Assembly: GCA_036504735.1 (NCBI GenBank)
Contig: DASXUQ010000019.1
Location: 62,001-126,000, forward strand
Direction: 5' to 3'
DNA: 64,000 bases
Source: a bacterium
Lineage (GTDB): Bacteria; Electryoneota; RPQS01
Numbering within the stretch: the stretch's first letter is position 1; each line of letters starts with the position of its first letter. The translations under genes and the position numbers were made by a program. The notes beneath the pieces were generated by a model. That model ran no database searches. It was not told the origin of the DNA and saw only the letters and a list, made by a program, of their open reading frames with translations. Shown here one piece after another: positions 3,058-18,426 of the stretch.

Positions 3058-3190
3058 TAGGCCGACATTGAACAGATGGGCCGATCCCGCCTGCTGCGGG
3101 ATGAGATTTTGTCCGGCAAAATTCGTATCTTATTGCTCTTCATTTTCCGCCACGCCAATCCGGTCAAGAGCAACCCAACACGATAGACTC

Positions 3191-5605
3191 ATGCATCTCA
3201 TTAGACGAGTTCTTTTCCTTCTCAGCTTCGCCTCCGCAGTCAGCGCACTGTGGGCGGAAGACAGTTCGCTGGGCAATATTCAGGGAGTGGTGATTGACGA
3301 AGCCACACGGCTTCCCCTGCAATTTGTGAATGTCACACTGCGAAAGAGCGGGGACAGCACCGCCGTTACGGGACAGATCACCGACTCGGCAGGGGTCTTT
3401 GCCATGCATGGAGTTCCGGCAGGGGAATACTATGTGACTCAGCAGATGATCGGTTACCGGCCACGCAAGAGCCCTGCCTTCCGGATCAGTCCGGATCGAT
3501 TGACCGTGAACTTGGGAAAGATTGCCCTTGCTACCAGCGAAATTCAGATGGATGAGGTGCAAATTTCGGCGGAGAAGATGCTGTTCACGACGTCGATCGA
3601 CCGCAAGATCTACAATGTGGAGCGGGATTTGACGGGGAAGTCGGGATCGGTCAGTGAACTGCTGCAGCATGTGCCGTCGGTGCAGGTGGATATTGACGGA
3701 AATGTGAGTCTGCGCGGCTCGTCGAATGTCATGTTTATGGTGAACGGACGCCCGTCGCCGCTGGTCAACCGGAACAGTTCAACCGTGCTGGAGCAGATGC
3801 CTGCCAATTCCATCGAGCGCATCGAGGTGCTCACCAATCCCAGCGCGGAGTTCAAACCGGATGCCGCCGCAGGAATCATCAATATTGTGATGAAGAAGAA
3901 CACGACCGCCGGCATGAACGGCAGCGTGGCGGGCAATATGGGAGACAGCGAACGGTACAATTCGAATCTCAGTTTGAACTACAATCCCGGAAAGTACAAT
4001 CTGTACGGGAGCTATGGGATTCGCCGCAACAACCGGAATCGCACCACCACGGATGACCGCCAGCAGGCGGACACGAGCTTTGCCTTCTTGAGCCAGAGGA
4101 CCAGCGGACATGCCCGGCCCTTAATGCAGACGGCGTCGGGCGGATGGGATTATCAGGCCGGCAAGCACGACCAGTTCGGACTCTCCGGCAGTTACTTCGG
4201 GAGCGGCGTTGACCGTACGGAGAATGCCGACAACATCTTATCTGACGCGAACCGGACCTTGACCAGCAGCTATGTCCGCAACCGGAATCAGGATCAGTCG
4301 TACAAGGAAGCCGAGGTGACCGGGTTCTACGAGCACGGTTTTGCCAAGGAAGAGCACAGCCTGCGGTTCGAATTCACGTCATCCTATGCACCGGAGCGGG
4401 AAGACAACCAGTTCACCAATATCTATCGCACGCCGGCCATATCGAACACCTTCGACAAGTCCCGCCTGAAGGAGACCGAAAGCAATCACCAGGTGTCGGT
4501 AGACTATGCGAATCCCCTTTCGGAAACAACCTCGCTGAAGGCCGGATATTCGGCGGAAATTCAAACCGGTGATTTCGACAACCACATCGAGAACTTCGAC
4601 GCAGCGCAGCAGGTCTACGTCGTGGATACCGCCAAAACCAACCGGTTTCGCAGCCACCAGATAACGCATGCGCTTTACAGCACGTGGCGGCAGTCTTTCG
4701 GAAAGCTCGGCGTACTGGCGGGATTGCGCGGAGAATACGTGGATCTCACGTCCAATCTGGTAACGCTGGATTCTTCAATCTCCCAGTCTTATGCCAACGT
4801 CTACCCTTCTCTGCATCTGTCCTATGGAGTGAGCAAACCCGTCGAACTGCAATTGAGCTACAGCAAGCGGACCCGCAGGCCGGACATTGACGATCTGAAT
4901 CCGTTTCCCGAATATTCCGATCCGCGCAACGTGCGCTCGGGCAATCCGAAACTGCGGCCCGAGTATGTCCATTCCTTGGAACTGGGCTGCCAATACCGTC
5001 AAGGGGAAATCAGCGTGACACCGGCCCTGTTCTACCGTTACACCTACAACCGCTTCACGTGGGTGACAAGAGCGCTGAACGACAGCGTGCTGCTGACGAC
5101 CCACGACAACCTCTCGAATGATCAGGCCGGCGGCCTTGAGGTGAATGTAACCGCCGGCGTGGCGAAGGTGGTGTCGTTGCATGGCACGGCGAGCGTGTAC
5201 GAAAATCAGATTGACGCCTCCAACCTGACGGGCGGGCGAAGAACCGTGAACACATGGAGCAGCAATCTGACCATGGACATTAATGCAACGGAGACCACTC
5301 GGCTGCAGTTAAGTTCCAACTACCGCTCCTCGATGCTGACCGCGCAGGGGCACATGTCTCCAAGCTACACACTGAACGCGGGCTTCAGACAGCAGTTTTA
5401 CAACGGCAAGCTATCGTTACTGGTTACCGTCACGGATATTTTCCATACCATGAAGCGCGAGTTTACCGTGGACACGGCAACGCTGCACGAGACCGCCGTC
5501 ACAACCTTCGACTCCCGCGTCATCTATGCGGGTTTGACCTTCCGGTTCGGAAAGGCACCGAAGAAGTCGCGTGACGAGCAGATCAGGTACGACTCGGGAG
5601 AATAG
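3191..5605 (+). CDS. TonB-dependent receptor-type outer-membrane barrel protein
   Basis: An 804-aa outer-membrane protein. A signal peptide (about 21 residues, ending SALWAED) leads into a CarboxypepD_reg-like domain (GNIQGVVIDEATRLPLQFVNV to about residue 105). A plug domain follows, with LRGSSNVMFMVNGRPSPL and SIERIEVLTNPSAEF, and then a long beta-barrel ending in the typical ...VIYAGLTFRFGK strand. Proteins of this architecture (outer membrane beta-barrel family 3) import or export an unknown ligand with TonB energy. The open frame extends to 3068, but that segment is unlike a leader; ATG 3191 gives a clean signal peptide. It stands alone between two terminators, with no SusD partner, so the ligand cannot be inferred. 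Confidence 0.85.
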   Translation: MHLIRRVLFLLSFASAVSALWAEDSSLGNIQGVVIDEATRLPLQFVNVTLRKSGDSTAVTGQITDSAGVFAMHGVPAGEYYVTQQMIGYRPRKSPAFRISPDRLTVNLGKIALATSEIQMDEVQISAEKMLFTTSIDRKIYNVERDLTGKSGSVSELLQHVPSVQVDIDGNVSLRGSSNVMFMVNGRPSPLVNRNSSTVLEQMPANSIERIEVLTNPSAEFKPDAAAGIINIVMKKNTTAGMNGSVAGNMGDSERYNSNLSLNYNPGKYNLYGSYGIRRNNRNRTTTDDRQQADTSFAFLSQRTSGHARPLMQTASGGWDYQAGKHDQFGLSGSYFGSGVDRTENADNILSDANRTLTSSYVRNRNQDQSYKEAEVTGFYEHGFAKEEHSLRFEFTSSYAPEREDNQFTNIYRTPAISNTFDKSRLKETESNHQVSVDYANPLSETTSLKAGYSAEIQTGDFDNHIENFDAAQQVYVVDTAKTNRFRSHQITHALYSTWRQSFGKLGVLAGLRGEYVDLTSNLVTLDSSISQSYANVYPSLHLSYGVSKPVELQLSYSKRTRRPDIDDLNPFPEYSDPRNVRSGNPKLRPEYVHSLELGCQYRQGEISVTPALFYRYTYNRFTWVTRALNDSVLLTTHDNLSNDQAGGLEVNVTAGVAKVVSLHGTASVYENQIDASNLTGGRRTVNTWSSNLTMDINATETTRLQLSSNYRSSMLTAQGHMSPSYTLNAGFRQQFYNGKLSLLVTVTDIFHTMKREFTVDTATLHETAVTTFDSRVIYAGLTFRFGKAPKKSRDEQIRYDSGE

Positions 5606-5978: not shown

Positions 5979-8900
5979 ATGAGACGACTTGTTAAGGTTT
6001 GGGTGTGGGCACTGGCATTGTTGACGCTGGCCGGCGCGGTAGTGGTGATGGGCGCCACCGGAAGTCGAAGCGTTACCCACCAGACCGAGACCGGGAGGCC
6101 GGTTAATCCTGCGCTGAGCGAAGCTTTCGCCAGGATGCAGGAGAAAGTTCACCGTGGAATCCCGCTGAATGATCAGGACAAGCAATTGACGGCCGAGATG
6201 ATGGCCGCAACATCCGGGCGCGAGTCACGGCGTCCGCTGGATAACCAGGGCGGGCCGGATGCGTTCGGTTACATGTTTGTGGATAATCAGGGCGGCGACA
6301 CGGCGACATACTCCTGGATCGAATTACGGGGAGACGATAACGCAACGTGGCTGAACGCCGCGGATTTCACCAGCGTCGACGACGGCATGACGAATGCCCC
6401 TGTGGAAATCGGCTTCAACTTCCCCTTCTACGGCCAGACCTATTCGCAGTGCTCTTTCGGAACGAACGGCGATGTGCAGTTCGCCACGAGCTATGCGTAT
6501 GAATACACCCAGTGCCTGCCCCGCATGCAGTCGGGTGCAATGGTAACGGCCTTCGCCACGGACTTGCATTTGTTGAATGGCGGCATCCCGACCGGCGACG
6601 GTGTGGTAGGTTACAAGAATTTCGGCACCTATTTCGTCGTGGAATGGGATTCGGTTGGGTTCTACAATACGGGCATCTGCCCGAATGGCTCTTTGAAGTT
6701 TCAGGCCATTCTGTACAACTCGGGGCGGATCAAATTCCAGTATAATCAGTTGATCGTCCCGACGGGATGTTTCGGCACGTACGCTCCGAATATCGGTATC
6801 CAGCAGAACGGCACAACGGGCACCAGCCTGGTGTACGCCTGCGGTCAGGCCGGGATCTTCCCGGTGGACGGCCAAGCCACGTGGTTTGTGCTGCCCAACG
6901 GTGTGCCACGGCCTGTGACCAATTTGCAAAGCGCCGTGAATGGACATGACGTCACGCTGACGTGGGTGGATCCGACGCAGGACACCAACGGCAACCCGAT
7001 GGCCGTAGACAGCGTGCAGATCTGGATGGGCGCTCCCGGACAGGGTACTCGCGTCGGCGTGGTCAGCCCCGGTGTTCAGACGTTTGTACACTCCAACGCG
7101 CCGGACGGCAACCTCGTGTATTATGTTCGCGCCGCCAACGAAGGCTGGTTCAGCCCCTCGGTCACAGCGAACGCCATGGTGGGGACTCCGACGTACAGTC
7201 AGGATTTTGAAATCGACAACGGCGCATGGGTTGCGGACAACGGCTGGGCCTGGGGAACGCCGACGTTTGCTCAGGCTCCCGCGCCGCACAGTGGCACCAA
7301 TGTGTGGGGTACCGTCCTGGATGGACCGGTTCCTGCCAATGCATGCTACCATCTCGACTTGGATCTCGGTTTGGAAGTGATCAGTCCCGCAGCTACGTTG
7401 GAATTTTGGGGATGGTGGAGCATGTATCCGGCCAACGGGTATGACGCCTGCCATTTCGAAGTCAGCGTGGATGGCGGCACAACGTGGGAGCTGATCACCC
7501 CGGTGGACGGCTATACGGGAATGATATGGAATAATCAGACCTGTATTCCGAATCAGAATGCGTGGAGCAACACCAGCAACGGCTGGCGGCATATCGTTCT
7601 GCCTATCGGTGCCTACCTCGGCCAGACTCCGATGTACCGTTTCACCTTCGGGTCCGTGTCCTGGAGCAGCACCTATGCCGGTTTCTACATCGACGACATG
7701 ATGATCTGGGGACTTCACCCGGCGCAGCAGGCCAACATTGCAGGAACCATTACCCTGAATGGCGGCACAGGCAACGTGACTCAGGCGCTGGTAGCGACCG
7801 ACGGATTGGGAAGCCCGACGGCTCACCCCGCGGCGAACGGAACCTACACACTGACCAACGCTCAGGTCGGACACCGCCGCATTGTGGCCAGCCTGGCCGG
7901 TTATGTTCCCGATACCCTGCTGGTCCTGCTGGACAGCACGGGCTACACCGGCGCGAACATCACGCTGCGCCGCGTGGCTCCGCCTGCTCCGACAGGTTTG
8001 ACAGGCACCGTCCGTACCACCGCTCGCATAGACAGCCTGCATTGGGACGTGTCTCCCGATGTGCTGGTGGACGGCTACAAACTCTATCGCCGCCCGGACG
8101 GGACCCCGACGTGGCAATATCGCCGTACTGTCACTGGACGCGCGACGCAGTGGGTACTGGATACGCTGGAAACGGAGGGCGTTTATCAGTACGTGATTAC
8201 CGCGATTGACAACGACGTTACCGATCCTCCCGTAGAATCGGACTATTCGAACACGATCACCAAGGCTTTCGGACATCAGCCGCCGGCCCTGCTGACGGCC
8301 AATGGCAATTTCGATAACCGGATTCACCTCTCATGGGTTGCGCCCGGTGCGCCGCTCGAGCGGGAAGTGTATTACGACAACGGCGTCAACTCGCCGGCCG
8401 TGTTCGATATCCGCTGGCTCGGTCAGGTGTCTTTCGGCTACTTCGTGTCCCACTTCCAGACGAACAATGGACCGGCCACGATTACCCGGATCAAGATCTA
8501 CTACACCCACAATGCGACCCTCGGAGATCCCATCGAAGTGGCGGTGTTTGCCGACACCGGCGATGGAACACCGACCTTCACTCCGCTGGGTCTGATCTCC
8601 ACTCAGCAGGAAGAGCCGTTCGACTCTTTCCGCACCTTTATCGTGGATCCTCCGGTGACGATTCCCAGTGGATCGTTCTTTGTGGGAACACGCCAGGTTA
8701 CGGCCAATGGCATCTGTATTGGCGGTGATCAGGTCGATCCCATGATCAACAACACGTTCTTCTGCGCGCCGGATGTGTTCAGTTGGTATACCTTCGAGTG
8801 GGAAGGGTTGATGGCCATTCCGATGATTCGAGCGCTGGTCGTTGGTGATATCGGCGATGGCTTGGCGTCGGAGACCGAGCTGGCACCGTCGCCTTCGCGG

Positions 8901-11003
8901 ATCACGGCGCCGGTTCCCGCGTTCCTCGCGCATCCTTCCAAGACCATGCAGGCGCTCAGCGGTTCGGTCCCGGGCAAGAAGTCGATGACGCAACCGGCGG
9001 TCGCCCTGTGCGGTGCGCCCGGTTATCGCGGCATGCAGATGGGTGACATGGCCGACCGCCGGCGCACGAGCTTGCCTTATCGCGCACCCTACATGGAAGC
9101 CGCGGGAAGCGTCAATCCGGGACGCCACGGTCACTCGCTGGACGACGTGGTGCGATTCGTAATCTACCGGGACAATGCCGTGCGCGATTCGGTTGGGCCG
9201 AACGTGACTCAATATGACGACGCGACCCCGCCGCTGCAGGAGAACGTTCCGCATACCTACTGGGTCAAAGCCCGCTGGGATGACAACGCCTTGTCGGTGA
9301 ACTCGGACACGGTTACGGCGCGATGCAACATGGCGCCGGGCGCACCGACCAATGTCACGGTGACGCCGGTCGGTCTGTCTCAGATGCATGTGACGTGGAC
9401 GGATCCAACGATAAACGCCGACGGAACACCCTGCACCGATTTGGACAGCCTGCGTGTTTATCGCGACGGAACGTATATCGGACACGTCCTGCATGGTGTA
9501 CAGACCTACACCGATACTCCGCCTGATCCCATGATGATCTACTCATGGACGGTCAAGGCGATTGACGAAGTACCCAATGAAGGAGCCGGCGCGAGCGCCA
9601 GCGGTTCGGTGGTCAGCCCGTGGCATACGGTGGAACTGCAGTGGGTGGACATCACCACGAACGGCACCGTGGCCGCGCAGAGTGACGACATCGTGACCGG
9701 TCCGTACGATCTGGGATTCAATTTCCCCTATTACGGCCAGACCTACACATCGGTGATGGTGGGTTCCAATGGCTACATCACCTTCGGTGACCAAACGGTG
9801 ACGCTCGGGGCTCCGTGCCCGCCCAATGTCGGCGTGCCCAACGGTGTGGTGTTTGCTTTTGCAGCGGATCTTTGGCCGACCGCAGGCCAGTGCAAGTACT
9901 ATGCGGACGCCGCCAACCAACGGTTCATCGTGAGTTGGGACCATTGCCCGCCGTGCTGTTCCGACAACAGTCCGTACCGTACTTTCCAGATTATTCTCGA
10001 TTCGAACGGTGGCGTCACGCTGCAATATGGTCAGATGGATAACAACAGCGGCGTGGTGGGTTTGGAAAACGCGGATGGATCCGATGGTGTCAGCCTGTGG
10101 TGCAATAATACCGGGCCGTTTACGCCGGGCAATAATGCCGTTCAGTTCTGGGGCGGTCCGCGCCAGGCGATTGACGGCACGATCCGCCATCTGGGCGGTT
10201 CCAATCCGTTCCTCGAAAATGCCCACGTGTGGGTGACCGGTTTGCCCGATACGATGCTGACCGATGCCAATGGCCATTATCAGATGCCGGTGGATCCGGG
10301 CACGTACACGGTGCATTTCCAGCACGCGACGCATTGTGATTCGGTGCGGGCTAACGTGGTGGTGGAACCCAATGTGAACTCTACCATCAATATGTCGCTG
10401 CGTTCGCCGAATGCCACGCTCTCGGCCAGTTCGCTGACGTTTGTGGTGCGCCGCTTCCAGACGGTCCCGCAATCGTTCACGATCACAAATACTGCGGGCA
10501 ACTGTCCGTTGAGCTATGAGGTACTCGATAGCGTGGCATGGCTGACGAGCGATCCGGCAAGTGGCACGGTGAATCCGAATGAGACAACCACCATTACGGT
10601 CACTGCCGCTCCGGGAACCTTGCAGCCGAACGAGTACCACACCACCATGCGGGTGCTGTGCAACGCGCCGGGCAGTCCGTTCCTGCTTCAGGTGGATATG
10701 AACGTGCTGTCGGTGGACCAGATCCCCGGCCTGCTGCCGACGGAGTTTGCCCTGCACGCCAACTATCCGAATCCCTTCAACCCGACGACGCTGCTGCCCT
10801 TCGACGTGCCGCAGAACAGTCAGGTGGCTATCATCGTCTACAATGTGATGGGGCAGGAAGTGGCCACGCTGGTCAACGGCAAGTACGCCGCGGGCCGCTA
10901 TCAGGTCAGCTTCGATGCCGGAAACCTTCCCTCGGGTCTTTACCTTGTGAAGATGACCGCCGGAAACTACACCGCCATGAACAAGATGATGATGCTGAAG
11001 TAA
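5979..11003 (+). CDS. Giant multidomain secreted protein with type IX (Por) C-terminal sorting domain
   Basis: A 1674-aa surface or secreted protein. A signal peptide (LALLTLAGAVVVMGA) is followed by a nidogen-like beta domain (FNFPFYGQTYS, about residues 90-310), a fibronectin-III domain (about 315-405), a MAM/jelly-roll-like domain (SQDFEIDNGAW to YIDDMMIWG, about 410-580) and a carboxypeptidase-regulatory-like fold (about 585-660). More FnIII domains flank a charged, low-complexity linker near residues 965-1050. A second copy of the nidogen-like domain (FNFPYYGQTYTSVMVGSNGYI) lies at about 1215-1390, followed by another regulatory-like fold, a BACON-like domain (about 1470-1580) and the C-terminal sorting domain (NYPNPFNP, then VYNVMGQEVATL and LPSGLYLVKM). 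That tail is known to target proteins to the type IX secretion system. ATG 5979 has RBS GAGGAG six bases upstream. No enzyme active site was recognised; adhesion or sheath formation is a guess. Confidence 0.85.
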   Translation: MRRLVKVWVWALALLTLAGAVVVMGATGSRSVTHQTETGRPVNPALSEAFARMQEKVHRGIPLNDQDKQLTAEMMAATSGRESRRPLDNQGGPDAFGYMFVDNQGGDTATYSWIELRGDDNATWLNAADFTSVDDGMTNAPVEIGFNFPFYGQTYSQCSFGTNGDVQFATSYAYEYTQCLPRMQSGAMVTAFATDLHLLNGGIPTGDGVVGYKNFGTYFVVEWDSVGFYNTGICPNGSLKFQAILYNSGRIKFQYNQLIVPTGCFGTYAPNIGIQQNGTTGTSLVYACGQAGIFPVDGQATWFVLPNGVPRPVTNLQSAVNGHDVTLTWVDPTQDTNGNPMAVDSVQIWMGAPGQGTRVGVVSPGVQTFVHSNAPDGNLVYYVRAANEGWFSPSVTANAMVGTPTYSQDFEIDNGAWVADNGWAWGTPTFAQAPAPHSGTNVWGTVLDGPVPANACYHLDLDLGLEVISPAATLEFWGWWSMYPANGYDACHFEVSVDGGTTWELITPVDGYTGMIWNNQTCIPNQNAWSNTSNGWRHIVLPIGAYLGQTPMYRFTFGSVSWSSTYAGFYIDDMMIWGLHPAQQANIAGTITLNGGTGNVTQALVATDGLGSPTAHPAANGTYTLTNAQVGHRRIVASLAGYVPDTLLVLLDSTGYTGANITLRRVAPPAPTGLTGTVRTTARIDSLHWDVSPDVLVDGYKLYRRPDGTPTWQYRRTVTGRATQWVLDTLETEGVYQYVITAIDNDVTDPPVESDYSNTITKAFGHQPPALLTANGNFDNRIHLSWVAPGAPLEREVYYDNGVNSPAVFDIRWLGQVSFGYFVSHFQTNNGPATITRIKIYYTHNATLGDPIEVAVFADTGDGTPTFTPLGLISTQQEEPFDSFRTFIVDPPVTIPSGSFFVGTRQVTANGICIGGDQVDPMINNTFFCAPDVFSWYTFEWEGLMAIPMIRALVVGDIGDGLASETELAPSPSRITAPVPAFLAHPSKTMQALSGSVPGKKSMTQPAVALCGAPGYRGMQMGDMADRRRTSLPYRAPYMEAAGSVNPGRHGHSLDDVVRFVIYRDNAVRDSVGPNVTQYDDATPPLQENVPHTYWVKARWDDNALSVNSDTVTARCNMAPGAPTNVTVTPVGLSQMHVTWTDPTINADGTPCTDLDSLRVYRDGTYIGHVLHGVQTYTDTPPDPMMIYSWTVKAIDEVPNEGAGASASGSVVSPWHTVELQWVDITTNGTVAAQSDDIVTGPYDLGFNFPYYGQTYTSVMVGSNGYITFGDQTVTLGAPCPPNVGVPNGVVFAFAADLWPTAGQCKYYADAANQRFIVSWDHCPPCCSDNSPYRTFQIILDSNGGVTLQYGQMDNNSGVVGLENADGSDGVSLWCNNTGPFTPGNNAVQFWGGPRQAIDGTIRHLGGSNPFLENAHVWVTGLPDTMLTDANGHYQMPVDPGTYTVHFQHATHCDSVRANVVVEPNVNSTINMSLRSPNATLSASSLTFVVRRFQTVPQSFTITNTAGNCPLSYEVLDSVAWLTSDPASGTVNPNETTTITVTAAPGTLQPNEYHTTMRVLCNAPGSPFLLQVDMNVLSVDQIPGLLPTEFALHANYPNPFNPTTLLPFDVPQNSQVAIIVYNVMGQEVATLVNGKYAAGRYQVSFDAGNLPSGLYLVKMTAGNYTAMNKMMMLK

Positions 11004-11241: not shown

Positions 11242-12441
11242 GTGTTAATCGGCATCTTAAAAGAAACCGCTATCCATGAGCGCCGGGTGAGCATCGTGCC
11301 CGACGGAGCCGCTGCGCTGATTGCGAAGGGAATAGAGGTTGTTATCGAATCCGGCGCGGGGGAAAGTGCGTACTACCCCGACCGGGCTTATCAGGACAAA
11401 GGCGCACGTATCGCCGCCACTCGGGAAACGGTGCTGGCGGCGGATGTGCTGGCCACGGTAAATTTGCCGGGAGTGCCACTTGCAGATCGGCGCGCAATTA
11501 TTGAACGGCTTCACCCGCAGCAGATTATGATGGGGCTCTTGAATCCGCTGGGTGATCCAAAGCTGATGGATGCACTGGCGGCGCGCAACGTCACCGCCTT
11601 TGCCCTTGAACTGGTGCCACGGATTACGCGCGCACAGAGTATGGATGCGCTCTCGTCGATGGCTACGGTAGCCGGATATTCGGCGGTGCTGATTGCCGCG
11701 CGGACTCTGCCGCGATTCTTCCCGATGCTGATGACCGCCGCGGGCACGGTGACTCCGGCGCGGGTGTTCGTCATCGGCGCGGGCGTCGCCGGATTGCAGG
11801 CGATTGCCACGGCACGGCGGCTGGGCGCGGTCGTACATGCCTATGACGTGCGGCCTGCCGTCAAGCAGGAAGTGCAAAGCCTCGGCGCGAAGTTCGTCGA
11901 ACTGGACCTGGAAACGCGCGCCGCGGCGGACAGCGGCGGCTATGCCCGTGCGATGGATGAACGTTTCTATGCCAGACAGCGGGAACTGATGAGCCGAGTA
12001 TTGGCCCATAGCGACGTAGTGATCTCCACGGCGGCTGTTCCGGGAAAGAAGGCTCCGGTGCTGATCACGCGGCAGATGGTGAGCCTTATGCCGCCGGGTT
12101 CGGTGATTGTGGATCTGGCCGCGGAGCAGGGCGGCAACTGCGAAGCTACGAAGCCGGGGGGCACGGTCGTCGAGCGGGACGTGACGATTCTTGGGCCGCA
12201 GAATCTGCCCTCTTCCCTTCCCTACCACGCCAGCCAGATGTACTCGAAGAACATCACGTCCTTTCTGCTGTATGTACAGAAGGAACTGCCTGAGGAAGGC
12301 ACTGGCGAGCGTCTGGTCTTGGCGGAGGATGAGATTATCCACGACACACTGGTGATGCACGGCGGTCGGATAGTGAACGCGAGAGTCCGCGAGGCGTTGG
12401 GCAATTCCGCCCTGCCTGCAGAAGAAAGGCAAACGGTGTAA
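11242..12441 (+). CDS. pntAA: NAD(P) transhydrogenase subunit alpha, part 1 (NAD(H)-binding)
   Basis: A 399-aa soluble dI component of proton-translocating transhydrogenase, which binds NAD(H) and passes hydride to NADP+ using the proton gradient. Family features seen are the N-terminal IGILKET...ERRVSIVPD, the nucleotide-binding FVIGAGVAGLQAIATARRLGA (about residues 175-195), the RQRELMSRVLAHSDVVI region and PGSVIVDLAAEQGGN. The start is GTG 11242. The stop overlaps the next ATG by one base (12441). The split alpha subunit (two genes rather than one) is the arrangement common in alphaproteobacteria and many deeper lineages. Expected to supply NADPH. Confidence 0.95.
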   Translation: MLIGILKETAIHERRVSIVPDGAAALIAKGIEVVIESGAGESAYYPDRAYQDKGARIAATRETVLAADVLATVNLPGVPLADRRAIIERLHPQQIMMGLLNPLGDPKLMDALAARNVTAFALELVPRITRAQSMDALSSMATVAGYSAVLIAARTLPRFFPMLMTAAGTVTPARVFVIGAGVAGLQAIATARRLGAVVHAYDVRPAVKQEVQSLGAKFVELDLETRAAADSGGYARAMDERFYARQRELMSRVLAHSDVVISTAAVPGKKAPVLITRQMVSLMPPGSVIVDLAAEQGGNCEATKPGGTVVERDVTILGPQNLPSSLPYHASQMYSKNITSFLLYVQKELPEEGTGERLVLAEDEIIHDTLVMHGGRIVNARVREALGNSALPAEERQTV

Positions 12442-12728
12442 TGGAAACTCTGGTTACGGCGATTACGGTGTTTGTACTCGCGACGTTTGTAGGTTTTGAA
12501 ATCATCCACCGGGTACCGCCACTGCTGCATACGCCACTGGTCTCGGGCACGAATGCGATTTCCGGCATCACTGTCGTCGGAGCAATCGTGACGGCGGGGA
12601 CAGGACACGACACGATCACGGCGGTTCTGGGGTTTGTGGCCGTGGCTTTCGCGACGATTAATGTGGTCGGTGGGTACGTGGTGACGCACCGCATGCTGAA
12701 ATCCTTCAAGAAGAGCCGTGAACGGTGA
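12441..12728 (+). CDS. pntAB: NAD(P) transhydrogenase subunit alpha, part 2 (membrane)
   Basis: A 95-aa membrane subunit with about three transmembrane helices (VTAITVFVLATFVGFEII; SGTNAISGITVVGAIVTAG; FVAVAFATINVVGGYVV). It forms part of the proton channel (dII) together with the N-terminal half of PntB. The sequence HTPLVSGTNAISG is characteristic of the family. It overlaps the upstream gene by one base and the downstream GTG start by four (GTGA), so all three genes should be co-translated. Confidence 0.93.
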   Translation: METLVTAITVFVLATFVGFEIIHRVPPLLHTPLVSGTNAISGITVVGAIVTAGTGHDTITAVLGFVAVAFATINVVGGYVVTHRMLKSFKKSRER

Positions 12729-14116
12729 ATCTCAGTATTGTCAACTTCGCCTACCTGGTGTCCGCCGTACTCTTTATCCTCGGACTGAAGATGATGGCGC
12801 ATCCCAGCACAGCGGCGCGTGGAAACCTCTACAGCGCCGTGGGCATGCTCATCGCCATTGTGTTTACCCTGTGGGGCTGGGAGATCCTCAGTTATGAGCT
12901 GATCCTGATTGGAATTCTGATCGGGTCCACCATCGGGGTCGTCCTTGCGCTGCGGATCAAGATGACGGCGATGCCGCAGATGGTCGCGTTCCTGCACGGT
13001 TTTGGCGGTGCGGCGTCCACACTTGTGGCCGGAAGCGAACTGATTCGGACACAAGGCGATCCGGTGGCGCTCAGTAATCAATTTACCATATCTGTCGCGG
13101 CTACCGGTCTGATCGGCACGGTAACGTTCTGGGGCAGCCTTGTGGCTTTCGGGAAACTCCAGGAGTTTGTTCTGCGAGGCGATCCCATTCACTTCCCCGG
13201 GCAACAGCCGCTGAATGTGGCCTTGCTGATGGTATGCGTCGCCATTGGCGCCATGCTCGTTCTGAATCCTCAGCCCAATCTGTATTGGCTGCTGGTAGCC
13301 GTGGCCTCCGTGCTGGGGATCCTCGTGGTGCTTCCGGTGGGGGGCGCGGATATGCCCGTTGCCATCTGCGTCTTGAACTCTTCGTCCGGTCTGGCAGGCT
13401 GCGCCACTGGTTTTGCGATCCACAACAATGCCTTGATTATATCGGGAGCGCTGGTGGGCTCATCCGGCATGATCCTGGCGGACATCATGTGCAAGGCGAT
13501 GAACCGCTCTCTGATAAGCGTGCTGTTGGGGACTTTGGGGCCAACGGCAGGATCCCCCACGGCGGATGCGGTGTATGACGGGAAGATCAAGAGCGCTTCC
13601 CCCGACGAGATCGCCATGCTCTTCGAAGCGGCGCAGCGCGTGGTGATTGTCCCCGGCTACGGTATGGCCGTCTCGCAGGCACAGCATGCGGTGAAGGAAC
13701 TCGAGCAATTGCTCGAATCCCACGGCGTAGAGGTGGAGTACGCGATTCATCCCGTGGCCGGAAGAATGCCCGGCCACATGAACGTGCTGCTGGCGGAAGC
13801 GAATGTTCCCTATGACAAGCTGCGTGAGATGGACGATATCAATCCCACGATGGGAACGGCGGACATCGCGCTGATTATCGGAGCCAACGATGTGGTCAAT
13901 CCCATGGCGCGCACCGATCCGAAAAGCGTGATCGGCGGAATGCCGATTATCGACGCGGATAAGGCACACACGGTGGTGGTAATTAAGCGCAGTCTCAGCC
14001 CGGGCTTCGCTGGGATTCCCAATCCGCTGTTTGCCGCACCGAATACGCTGATGTTTTTCGCCGACGGCAAGAAGGCTATTTCCGATCTGATTCACGCCAT
14101 CAAGGAAAGCCAATAG
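12725..14116 (+). CDS. pntB: NAD(P) transhydrogenase subunit beta
   Basis: A 463-aa membrane protein. Residues 1 to about 265 carry some eight to nine transmembrane helices of the proton channel. Residues about 290-463 form the NADP(H)-binding dIII domain, with GYGMAVSQAQHAVKEL, HPVAGRMPGHMNVLLAEA, GANDVVNPMA and KRSLSPGFAGIPN all recognisable. The GTG start overlaps the pntAB stop (GTGA). Together with pntAA and pntAB it completes the enzyme. The operon is closed by a strong terminator 33 bases downstream. Confidence 0.95.
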   Translation: MNLSIVNFAYLVSAVLFILGLKMMAHPSTAARGNLYSAVGMLIAIVFTLWGWEILSYELILIGILIGSTIGVVLALRIKMTAMPQMVAFLHGFGGAASTLVAGSELIRTQGDPVALSNQFTISVAATGLIGTVTFWGSLVAFGKLQEFVLRGDPIHFPGQQPLNVALLMVCVAIGAMLVLNPQPNLYWLLVAVASVLGILVVLPVGGADMPVAICVLNSSSGLAGCATGFAIHNNALIISGALVGSSGMILADIMCKAMNRSLISVLLGTLGPTAGSPTADAVYDGKIKSASPDEIAMLFEAAQRVVIVPGYGMAVSQAQHAVKELEQLLESHGVEVEYAIHPVAGRMPGHMNVLLAEANVPYDKLREMDDINPTMGTADIALIIGANDVVNPMARTDPKSVIGGMPIIDADKAHTVVVIKRSLSPGFAGIPNPLFAAPNTLMFFADGKKAISDLIHAIKESQ

Positions 14117-14457: not shown

Positions 14458-17400
14458 ATGCAAAGATCTTTAGTTGTTTTGCTACTGGGAGCGTTGAGCT
14501 TGCAGCTTAGTTTTGCCACACCGTCTCAGAGCCAGAGTGCTGGCGACAATGAAACGCAACGATTACAGGCGCAGATTACTTCTCTGCGTCAGCAAATGCA
14601 GATCGCATCATCTGCCTGCCGCGGCGAACAGGTCATCCGGGAATTGCAGAGCCGGATTGACAGGCTGACCGCGCAATGGACGGCAGCACGCGGACGCGGT
14701 GGCGAAGGGCTCGATCAGGGCGGTCAAACGTGCACCGATGCGCGTGTGATCAGTGTCATTCCATTCTGCGACACCGGTTCAACCACCACCGCTCTCAACG
14801 TGTTCTCGCCGCCATCGTCCTGCGGTGGCAGCAACGCTCCGGACGCAGTCTACAGTTACACGCCGGAGGCTACTACGTCGGCGTCGGTGTCCCTGTGCGG
14901 CTCGGATTTCAATACAATCCTCCATATCTGGAACGGCTGCCCGGGGCAACCGGGATCCCAGCCCGTCGCCTGCAACGATGACGGCGCCGCCTGTCCGCCT
15001 GCGAGCTGTTTGCCCGCGGTGGATTTTCTGGCGGGCAATACCTACTACATCGTCGTCGACGGCAGCGGAACAGAGCACGGCAACTACCGCTTGAGCATTG
15101 GCGGATCGGGCACATGCCCGGTGAATCCGTGTCCCTGTCCCTGGACCTGTCCGCCGAATGCGCTGCTCGAGCCGGAGCCTTGCCCCAACACCGGTCCGGA
15201 CGTCAATGCCGGATGCCATGGCTATCCGGTGCTGTTCACACCGATCTCCTGCGGACAGACCTACTGCGGTACCGCGCCGTGGACGCCCTCGCGGCAGGAC
15301 TTCGACGCCTATTCCGTGACATTGACGCAGCGCGACAGTTTACGCTGGTGCGTGTATTCCAAATTCGCGCCGAGCATCAGCGTCTACCAGTATTTCGCCG
15401 CCGGTTGAAGCCCCACACTGATCCAGACCGTAGGTCTGGCTTGTGACACGACCTGCGTCGCCGGTTGCTTCGACGCCGGTACGTATTACATTTTGATTAC
15501 CCCCTCCGGCCCTGCGGCCGGTGTGCCCTGCAGCGACGCGAACTACAGCGTCTCCCTGCAATGCCAGCCTTGCCTTCCCTGCCCCGAGTGTCCACCGACC
15601 GCCATTCGCGAAAACGAACCCTGCCCCAACTATCCGGACAACTTCAATAGTGGCTGCGCCAGCGACGGTTCGGTACACGTGACGCCGATCCAGTGCAACG
15701 AGGATATCTGCGGCACGCTCTGGACCGTAGCTGCACAGAGCGCCTACGACCGGGATGTGTACCAGATTACGACTACAGCGTACGACAGCATCACATGGAA
15801 TGTGGTGTCGAACGTGATGACCGAGGTGCAGATTCTGGAACCGCTGGGGTGCTCCGGAGTGATTACCCACGCGCAGTTGTATACGGCCAAGTGTGTCCCG
15901 CTGTTTGTCGGCAAGTGCCTGCCGCCGGGAACATACTGGCTGACGGTATCCACACTACAGCAGATTAACGTCCCGTGCGAACCCTATACGGCCAGCGTGC
16001 GCTGCATTCCCTGTCAGCCGGCGTGTGCGATCTGCCCGCCAACGGCGATCCACGAGAATGAACCGTGTCCCGGGTACAATTTGAATTTCAACGACGGCTG
16101 CAATCATTCGCCGGTGCATGTGTCGCACATTGCCTGCGGAGACACCATTTGCGGCACGTCCAATTTCTATGATCTCCCCGATCCTGATTTCTTTGAATTC
16201 ACCATCACACAGCGGGATACCGTCCGCTGGTGCGTGACGGCGATGTTCGATGTGGCCGCGGCGATCTACACGCCCGATCCGGTTTGCGCCAACATGATCA
16301 GCCATGCCAGCGGAAATGCCCCGCCGTGTACGCCGCTCTGCGTGGCGGCTTGTCTTCCGCCGGGCACCTACTGGGCGGTTGTGCGGCCAACCGTTTCCAT
16401 GGGAAGTCCGGTCTGTCAGCCCTATGTAGCATCCTTGCACTGCGCTCCGTGTCCATCGGGCAATGTGTGCAATTATGCCAGCTTCGACTTTGATCCGACC
16501 AATGACAGTTGCCGGTACAACAACATTCAGCTTTCTTGCGGCGACACTGTCTGTGGCAACATCATCACACCGAACGACCGCGACTGGTATGTGCTCGACA
16601 TTCCCAATGGCACACCCTGCTCGCAGGTTACCATAAACGTCTTCGGGAATGATACGCCCGGCATGTTCCCCTATGGGCAAGGACTCGATCCGGGGGTTGG
16701 CCTGTACAGCGGCGACTGCATCACGCAGTTTGGAGTGGACAATAATGGCGGCGTGGGCAATGACGCCCAACTGGTGTCGGCCTGTCTGCGTCCCGGAATG
16801 TACCATATTCAGGTCGGAGGCTTTGGAGGAACACATGGGCCGTACATTCTTGCGCTGACCTGCACGCCGTGTCCGTGTCCTCCGCCTTGCCCGTATCCTG
16901 ATCGCGAGTCGGAGCCGTTGAATAACACCTGCCACTCGGGTAACCCGCAGCTCTCGTGCCCGGATACCGTGTGCGGTGACATTCACCAGAGCAATGGCGT
17001 GGCAGATGTGGACTGGTACAACCTGACCATTCCCTCCCCGGGATGCACCCGGGTGACCATTAATGTGTTCGGCAACGACACCCCGGGACAGTACCCGTAT
17101 TTGCAGGGGCTGAATCCGGCAGTGGCGCTGTTCGACGCGAGCTGCGGCATACAACTGGCCTTCGATGACTCCTCCGGCGTGGGCAACGATGCCCGGCTGG
17201 TGTCGGCCTGCCTGAATCCGGGCGTGTACAACATCCGGGTCACCGGCGTCGGCACCGAAGGACCGTATGTGTTGGCCACATCGTGTGCGCCATGCATCTG
17301 TCCCAATATCTGCCCGTTCCCCAATCTGGACTTCGATCCGGCCAATGATGTGTGCGCTCAGGCCAACGTCACGTTAGCCTGTGGCGATACGCTCTGCGGC

Positions 17401-18426
17401 GATATTCTGCCGCCGAATGCGGCGGGTCTGTCCGACGTCGACTGGTACATTGTGCAGATTCCGGGGCACGACTGCGGGATCATTCAAGTGGATGTCTATG
17501 GCAATGACACTCCGGGATGGTATCCGTTCGGCGGCGGTCTGAATCCGAAGGTCTGGCTCTATGCGGCAGACTGCACGACACTGCTGGCGTTCGATGACAG
17601 TTCCGGTGTGGGCAATGATGCCAGTCTGACTACTTCCTGCCTGCCGGCCGGTTCATACCGGATCAAGGTGGAAGGAGTCAGCGGCAGCCACGGGCCGTAT
17701 GTGCTGGCAACACTCTGCGCGAGCTGCATCTGCGGGTGCAGCGTGACGTGTCCGACCGGCTATGTGGCGGAAGGTGAAGCCTGTCCGAATTTGGGACCGG
17801 ACACCTACAACGGCGGCTGCTCGATGATTCCGCCTTCCTTCAGCACCATCACCTGCGGCAGCCGCATCTGCGGCACGTCGTTCGCGATGGGCGGCATCAA
17901 AGACAGTGATTGGTACCGGTTCAACCTGACGACACCGCGCCGCATTCTATGGGTTGTGCGGGCAGGCTTCCCGTTCGAGATGGGCATCTACAGCCCGGTG
18001 AATGTGTGCGACAGTCTGCTTACGGTGCGCTACAATACCGGACAGAGTTGCCAGACGCGCTTCATCTTCACTCCATGTCTGCCCATCGGCACATACTACT
18101 TCAAGATTGCGCCCACGGTGACCAACGGAGTACCGTGTTCCAATTATTACACGTCGCTTTCCTGCGGCCACTGTATAGTCCACGCGGTCACGATTGATCT
18201 GTTCAACCAGAATGTGCGCTTGACCTGGGCCGCCGACGAAACTATGCCCGTCTACAACATTTACCGCAGCAGTTCACTGTTGGCCGATCCAAGCCCCGCA
18301 AACCTGATTGGCTCCACCTCAGACAGCACATTCCTCGATCCCGTGCGGTTGCCGGACGGCGGTCCGAAGGCCTTCTATACGGTCACCATGCAGGATCCAC
18401 CGGATAGCTTAGGCACTACCCCCTAA
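14458..18426 (+). CDS. Cysteine-rich secreted protein with eight PPC-like repeats, interrupted by in-frame TGA at codon 317
   Basis: One continuous frame of 1322 codons, with ATG 14458, a signal peptide (LVVLLLGALSLQLSFA), a short coiled coil (about residues 35-75), then eight repeats of roughly 120-150 aa and a terminal FnIII-like domain (about 1240-1322). Approximate repeat starts are 14734, 15124, 15580, 16015, 16450, 16875, 17300 and 17730. Each resembles a bacterial pre-peptidase C-terminal (PPC) sandwich stapled by cysteines, with recurring CGDTxCG and LPPGTYW motifs. The frame is broken once, by TGA at 15406-15408. Aligning the repeats puts this codon exactly where all seven others have cysteine, always TGC. 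No other stop occurs in the following 3 kb. A perfect 7-bp hairpin starts 15 bases after the TGA (15423-15439). The options are a nonsense mutation or sequence error (product 316 aa), or recoding as selenocysteine. No type IX sorting domain is present. Confidence 0.75.
15423..15439 (+). promoter_or_regulatory. Hairpin just after the in-frame TGA (SECIS-like geometry)
   Basis: CCAGACC (15423-15429), loop GTA, GGTCTGG (15433-15439). The loop begins 22 bases after the TGA and its first base is G. As I recall the bacterial SECIS model, it asks for a 4-16-bp stem, a G in the first two loop bases and a TGA-to-loop distance of about 16-37, and this hairpin satisfies all three. It lacks the bulged U of the E. 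coli fdhF element, and a hairpin of this size can also arise by chance. Confidence 0.35.

Follow-up and report, generated by a model that had tools for sequence, protein, structure and literature searches.

Predicted selenocysteine at an in-frame TGA in a secreted, cysteine-rich repeat protein gene of an Electryoneota bacterium

A cysteine-rich repeat gene with one in-frame TGA

The DNA analyzed here is a stretch of 64,000 nucleotides (the window) from a genome of 4.16 Mb that is 98% complete (G000). It carries a gene for a secreted, cysteine-rich protein, the reading frame of which comprises 1322 codons and includes one internal stop codon, a TGA at codon 317. Directly upstream lie the subunits of an NAD(P) transhydrogenase (AlaDh/PNT and PNTB, 11242-14116). 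Positions 5979-11003 encode a 1674-residue secreted protein with InhA-like MAM, fn3, and Por-type C-terminal sorting domains, and a TonB-dependent receptor gene (3068-5605) adjoins it. The features of the interrupted gene are as follows, each with the evidence on which it rests.

14458..18426, + strand: Cys-rich secreted-protein gene, 1322 codons, stop TAA, one TGA read through
14458..14520, + strand: probable signal peptide (MQRSLVVLLLGALSLQLSFA), from sequence inspection
15130..15576, + strand: second repeat, a PPC-like beta-sandwich containing codon 317, from repeat alignments, AF2, and Foldseek
15406..15408, + strand: predicted selenocysteine (Sec) codon, the in-frame TGA at codon 317, from the TGA in the other-genus orthologue and Cys in homologues
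15423..15439, + strand: predicted bacterial SECIS hairpin CCAGACC-GTA-GGTCTGG, from its geometry, its counterpart in G005, and its likeness to that of SelD
15442..15444, + strand: Cys329 codon, alternative partner of Sec317, from the presence of Cys at 329 or 337 in every domain examined
15466..15468, + strand: Cys337 codon, likely selenenylsulfide partner of Sec317, as suggested by its presence in 57 of 67 domains and by the predicted strands
15850..15852, + strand: Cys465 (TGC), the repeat 3 equivalent of codon 317, from repeat alignments
16285..16287, + strand: Cys610 (TGC), the repeat 4 equivalent of codon 317, from repeat alignments

The 1005 codons 3' of the TGA are open, which at the local GC content would arise by chance with a probability of approximately 2e-15, and the other two frames behind the TGA contain 32 and 26 stops. 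A preliminary description of this DNA had reported a single TGA at 15406-15408, placed at codon 317 of a 1322-codon gene, and we indeed find no other internal stop. It had further stated that the seven other repeats carry Cys at the equivalent position, which the repeat alignment bears out; of the Cys codons that it cited, those at 15850 and 16285 are right, while the first begins at 14938 and not at 14937. A standard gene caller would miss the protein, reporting a truncated 316-residue product and a separate 977-residue one.

Scanning the window for frames that span a TGA gave 20 matches, the codon 317 gene among them, and the others look like chance frames by their context. An Rfam search of the window returned no match. 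TGA is also the stop of 11 of the 26 open reading frames taken as genes in the window. A global reassignment of TGA in the host genome was considered and ruled out, since many genes end in TGA and the codon is thus an ordinary stop there.

The 1322-residue product is built of eight Cys-rich repeats resembling the bacterial pre-peptidase C-terminal (PPC) domain, followed by a short C-terminal fn3-like stretch. The AF2 model of repeat 2 is a confident beta-sandwich (pLDDT, 83.7; pTM, 0.81), and Foldseek matches it with moderate scores to the collagen-binding and PPC domains 1nqd and 5sv5. TM values normalized by target length reach 0.75 for 5sv5 and 0.72-0.75 for 1nqd, and only 0.55-0.58 when normalized by query length. 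At the profile level, repeat 6 gives 25.4 bits against PF04151 (PPC; E value, 2.6e-5), which is below the Pfam cut-off of 25.9, and a weak match to NF038127 (E value, 6.7e-8).

Conservation of individual cysteines was counted in 67 well-covered domains from the order. With the TGA read as Cys, the codon 317 column holds Cys in 65 of the 66 domains that have a residue there. Cys298 and Cys333 co-occur almost without exception across the domains (p of about 2e-12, a value that ignores kinship), and this co-occurrence suggests that the two probably form a disulfide. In the AF2 model, antiparallel strands 92-101 and 106-114 place domain residues 93 (codon 317) and 113 (codon 337) face to face. Since a Cys at 329 or 337 is present in every domain and these strands face each other, the most likely partner of Sec317 in a selenenylsulfide is Cys337 (or else Cys329), as judged from conservation and the predicted fold.

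The same TGA in an orthologue from another genus

A search of 61 genomes yielded one clear orthologue, L045 (JADLDM010000187.1), in the metagenome-assembled genome SJ276 (G005; 80% complete), which belongs to another genus of the same family. The two proteins are 53% identical over residues 155-1317, the start of L045 being lost at the contig end. Its sole internal stop is a TGA, and among 1154 aligned codons this TGA aligns with codon 317. Behind it 1000 codons are open, and the other two frames hold 34 and 42 stops. The preliminary description had pointed to an alignment of orthologues, and the only clear orthologue keeps both the TGA at codon 317 and a hairpin in the same register.

Behind the TGA, the window protein and L045 share 55% amino acid identity, with 288 of the 544 identical residues using a different codon, and third codon positions change the most (approximately 60% differ). 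Between the TGA and the first possible restart in the window lie 28 codons; 14 of their residues are identical in L045, nine of these by another codon. As this stretch is conserved as protein, the region right behind the TGA appears to be translated, and by these comparisons protein-level selection acts on both sides of the TGA. The codon has been kept while silent sites were largely scrambled and the protein was constrained, so that an error, a private mutation, or a pseudogene does not fit. Examination of 20 kb of G005 revealed no shared synteny 3' of the gene.

Among 13 genomes of the order and 39 of the phylum, only the window gene and L045 have TGA at codon 317. A contig scan for further TGA orthologues found none, returning only L045 again and remote relatives of 27-38% identity. 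In homologues aligned from elsewhere, TGC or TGT predominates in this column, and folding of the aligned Cys homologues revealed no hairpin of the same register; paralogues with Cys likewise lack it. A Cys/Sec pair pattern is a criterion by which new selenoproteins are recognized (PMC13188914), and the codon 317 column, with Cys in homologues and TGA here, displays this pattern.

The host genome also encodes a large paralogous set of Cys-rich, PPC-like proteins, with 36 matches on contigs C2, C5, C8-C11, C15, and C17-C19. At the codon 317 position, nearly all of these paralogous repeat proteins and those of the family have Cys. None of the other 35 matches contains an internal TGA, and one has a TAG. 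The match at G000:C18:59047-59400, which aligns with the gene's C-terminal portion, has one internal TAG and is possibly a decayed copy.

Selenocysteine machinery and the hairpin behind the TGA

The host, by all genomic signs, makes selenocysteine. The preliminary description had proposed a search for selA, selB, selC, and selD, and SelA, SelB, SelD, and tRNA-Sec all proved to be present in the host genome. Profile scores are 524 bits for SelA, 362 bits for SelB, and 345 bits for SelD; the tRNA-Sec scores above the Rfam cut-off and is assigned the anticodon TCA by ARAGORN. Contig C5 holds the genes for SelA, SelB, and tRNA-Sec in a cluster spanning no more than 20 kb. SelD itself has one in-frame TGA, and a Bcp-type peroxiredoxin has another (...DDTPGUTLEA; L148, G000:C5:623375-623749). 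In the latter, which we regard as a further selenoprotein of the host, the TGA sits at the cysteine of TPGCT and the downstream hairpin is weak. Across 15 genomes (the host and its relatives in the family, order, and phylum), tRNA-Sec was recovered in 11, SelB in 11, and SelA in 13.

G005 carries selA, and the same contig ends in the first ~100 codons of selB, in the gene order seen in the host. It also encodes an AhpC-type peroxiredoxin in which a TGA specifies the peroxidatic residue. tRNA-Sec and selD were not found in this 80% complete assembly; the presence of selA, the selB start, and the TGA-bearing peroxiredoxin nevertheless makes it very probable that G005 decodes Sec. In two AhpC-type peroxiredoxins, L149 (G005:C85:7651-8046) and L150 (G003:C267), TGA takes the place of the peroxidatic Cys codon (FTFVUATEF).

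The hairpin in the window has a 7-bp stem and a GTA loop, with the first loop base being the 22nd after the TGA (a spacing of 21 nt). This agrees with the preliminary description, which had placed a CCAGACC-GTA-GGTCTGG hairpin with its loop starting at that base, and we locate it at 15423-15439. The published rule for bacterial SECIS elements specifies a loop of 3-9 nt, a stem of 4-16 bp, and a distance of 16-37 nt from the UGA, as well as a G within the first two loop positions and a minimum free energy of -7.5 or less (PMC13188914). Our hairpin lies within these limits, with a local fold of -13.3 kcal/mol. A permissive version of the rule is also passed by 57 of the gene's 92 ordinary Cys codons. 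When synonymous codons were shuffled, an equal or better stem arose in 56 of 5000 trials at the same spacing and in 68 of 5000 at 16-37 nt. The 71-nt region around the hairpin folds no better than its shuffles (z, -0.58).

In G005, the hairpin in the same register forms six of seven pairs, versus seven of seven in the window. From the window to G005, an A-U pair is replaced by G-C (a compensatory change), a C-G pair becomes U-G, and one position is mismatched; the loops, GTA in the window and GTT in G005, both start with G-U at an equal distance from the TGA. Sliding the register by one base lowers pairing from 93% to 50%. The G005 pairing was matched in 4% of synonymous shuffles, or in 0.6% by pairing score. 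Strong hairpins elsewhere in the same gene are sometimes equally conserved, and the covariation count in the alignment was not above that of shuffles, covariation significance being out of reach with only two sequences. In the host, the SECIS of SelD has an 8-bp stem and a GGA triloop starting at the 21st base after the TGA, and the G005 peroxiredoxin has a GGC triloop at a SelD-like distance, one base nearer than in the window hairpin. Taken alone, the hairpin is weak and only modestly significant evidence; it fits with the other evidence but does not form the foundation of the case, whose strength rests on the comparative and genomic evidence.

Probable selenocysteine insertion, its alternatives, and its context

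We consider it highly likely, from the sequence comparisons and the genome content above, that the TGA at 15406 encodes selenocysteine. A SelB-like elongation factor carrying Sec-tRNA(Sec) would recognize the mRNA hairpin at 15423-15439, Sec would be inserted at codon 317, and the full 1322-residue protein would be made and then exported.

Very improbable, in our assessment, is a programmed readthrough in which the UGA would be decoded as a standard amino acid (Trp, Cys, or another) and a mix of short and long proteins would result. UGA is the leakiest stop codon, and sequence data leave the identity of the inserted residue unspecified, both of which favor such readthrough; however, codon 317 sits in a Cys column, the host genome has the full Sec machinery and other Sec proteins, and the hairpin matches both SECIS geometry and that of SelD. 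Still less credible is a true stop, with a 316-residue protein followed by a second protein made separately or by reinitiation. Such a division would fall in the middle of one PPC-like domain, and the downstream part would lack a signal peptide. Downstream starts do exist, namely, a TTG at 29 codons past the TGA in the window and an ATG at two codons past it in G005, but they differ in place between the two genes, and the 28 codons ahead of the first start in the window are conserved as protein. The least probable alternative is a nonsense mutation or a sequencing or assembly error in a gene otherwise with TGC or TGT: TGA is one base from the Cys codons and the known paralogues all have Cys or another residue at codon 317, but L045, which is 53% identical as protein and comes from a separately assembled genome of a different genus, has TGA at the same codon, with approximately 1000 open and constrained codons behind it in both genes. 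Unless an identical error entered both assemblies, the shared TGA essentially excludes a faulty base call as well as a nonsense mutation private to the window. Between mutation or error and selenocysteine, the two options named by the preliminary description, the sel genes and the TGA shared with L045 favor selenocysteine.

As for the role of the predicted selenocysteine, Sec317 would replace a nearly invariant Cys in a folded PPC-like domain, where it would probably be bonded to Cys337 (or Cys329) through a selenenylsulfide, as the conservation and predicted fold suggest. Such a bond would be re-reducible and less prone to over-oxidation than a disulfide and could thus provide a redox-active or repairable extracellular bond in one of the eight repeats. 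We tentatively propose, at somewhat less than even confidence, that the protein is an extracellular scaffold of tandem repeats or adhesin-like, and that its Sec, instead of sitting in an enzyme active site, contributes one partner of a conserved bond, a genetically encoded selenenylsulfide that would act at the cell surface as a structural or redox-switch element. To our knowledge, almost every known selenoprotein is a redox enzyme or a metal protein, and catalysis is therefore the usual explanation for Sec. Long retention of a Sec in one of eight secreted beta-sandwich repeats would raise the question of what role selenium has in a protein with no obvious catalytic function.

The selenoproteins SelD and peroxiredoxin resemble the 1322-residue protein in having UGA at a Cys position and a hairpin just downstream, and they share its genome and machinery; the SelD SECIS, with its 8-bp stem and GG triloop, lies at nearly the same distance as the window hairpin. 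They are enzymes with catalytic Sec, whereas the 1322-residue protein consists of large secreted repeats in which no enzyme domain was recognized. The predicted fold of repeat 2 is like that of PPC and collagen-binding beta-sandwiches (1nqd and 5sv5), and repeat 6 weakly matches the profile of the DVUA0089 family (NF038127). Unlike these, the protein is very Cys-rich and has eight tandem repeats, one copy of which carries a predicted Sec.

Extracytoplasmic selenoproteins in a 2026 catalogue include a TonB-dependent receptor of the FCYXU type, a UshA-like protein, the MtrB/PioB-type GSU2204 family, and the ExtKL cytochrome (PMC13188914). Earlier predictions have therefore already placed Sec in envelope or exported proteins, as ours does; however, none of these proteins is PPC-like or composed of tandem Cys-rich repeats, and many have CxxU, UxxC, or cofactor motifs (PMC13188914). 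A PPC-like or Cys-rich tandem-repeat type is likewise absent from the 119 catalogued prokaryotic families (Table 1 of PMC13188914), a comparison that covers the catalogue and not the groundwater candidates of Deng et al. 2026. A literature search found no paper joining "pre-peptidase C-terminal" with "selenocysteine." The carrier protein is new for Sec, and the decoding is standard.
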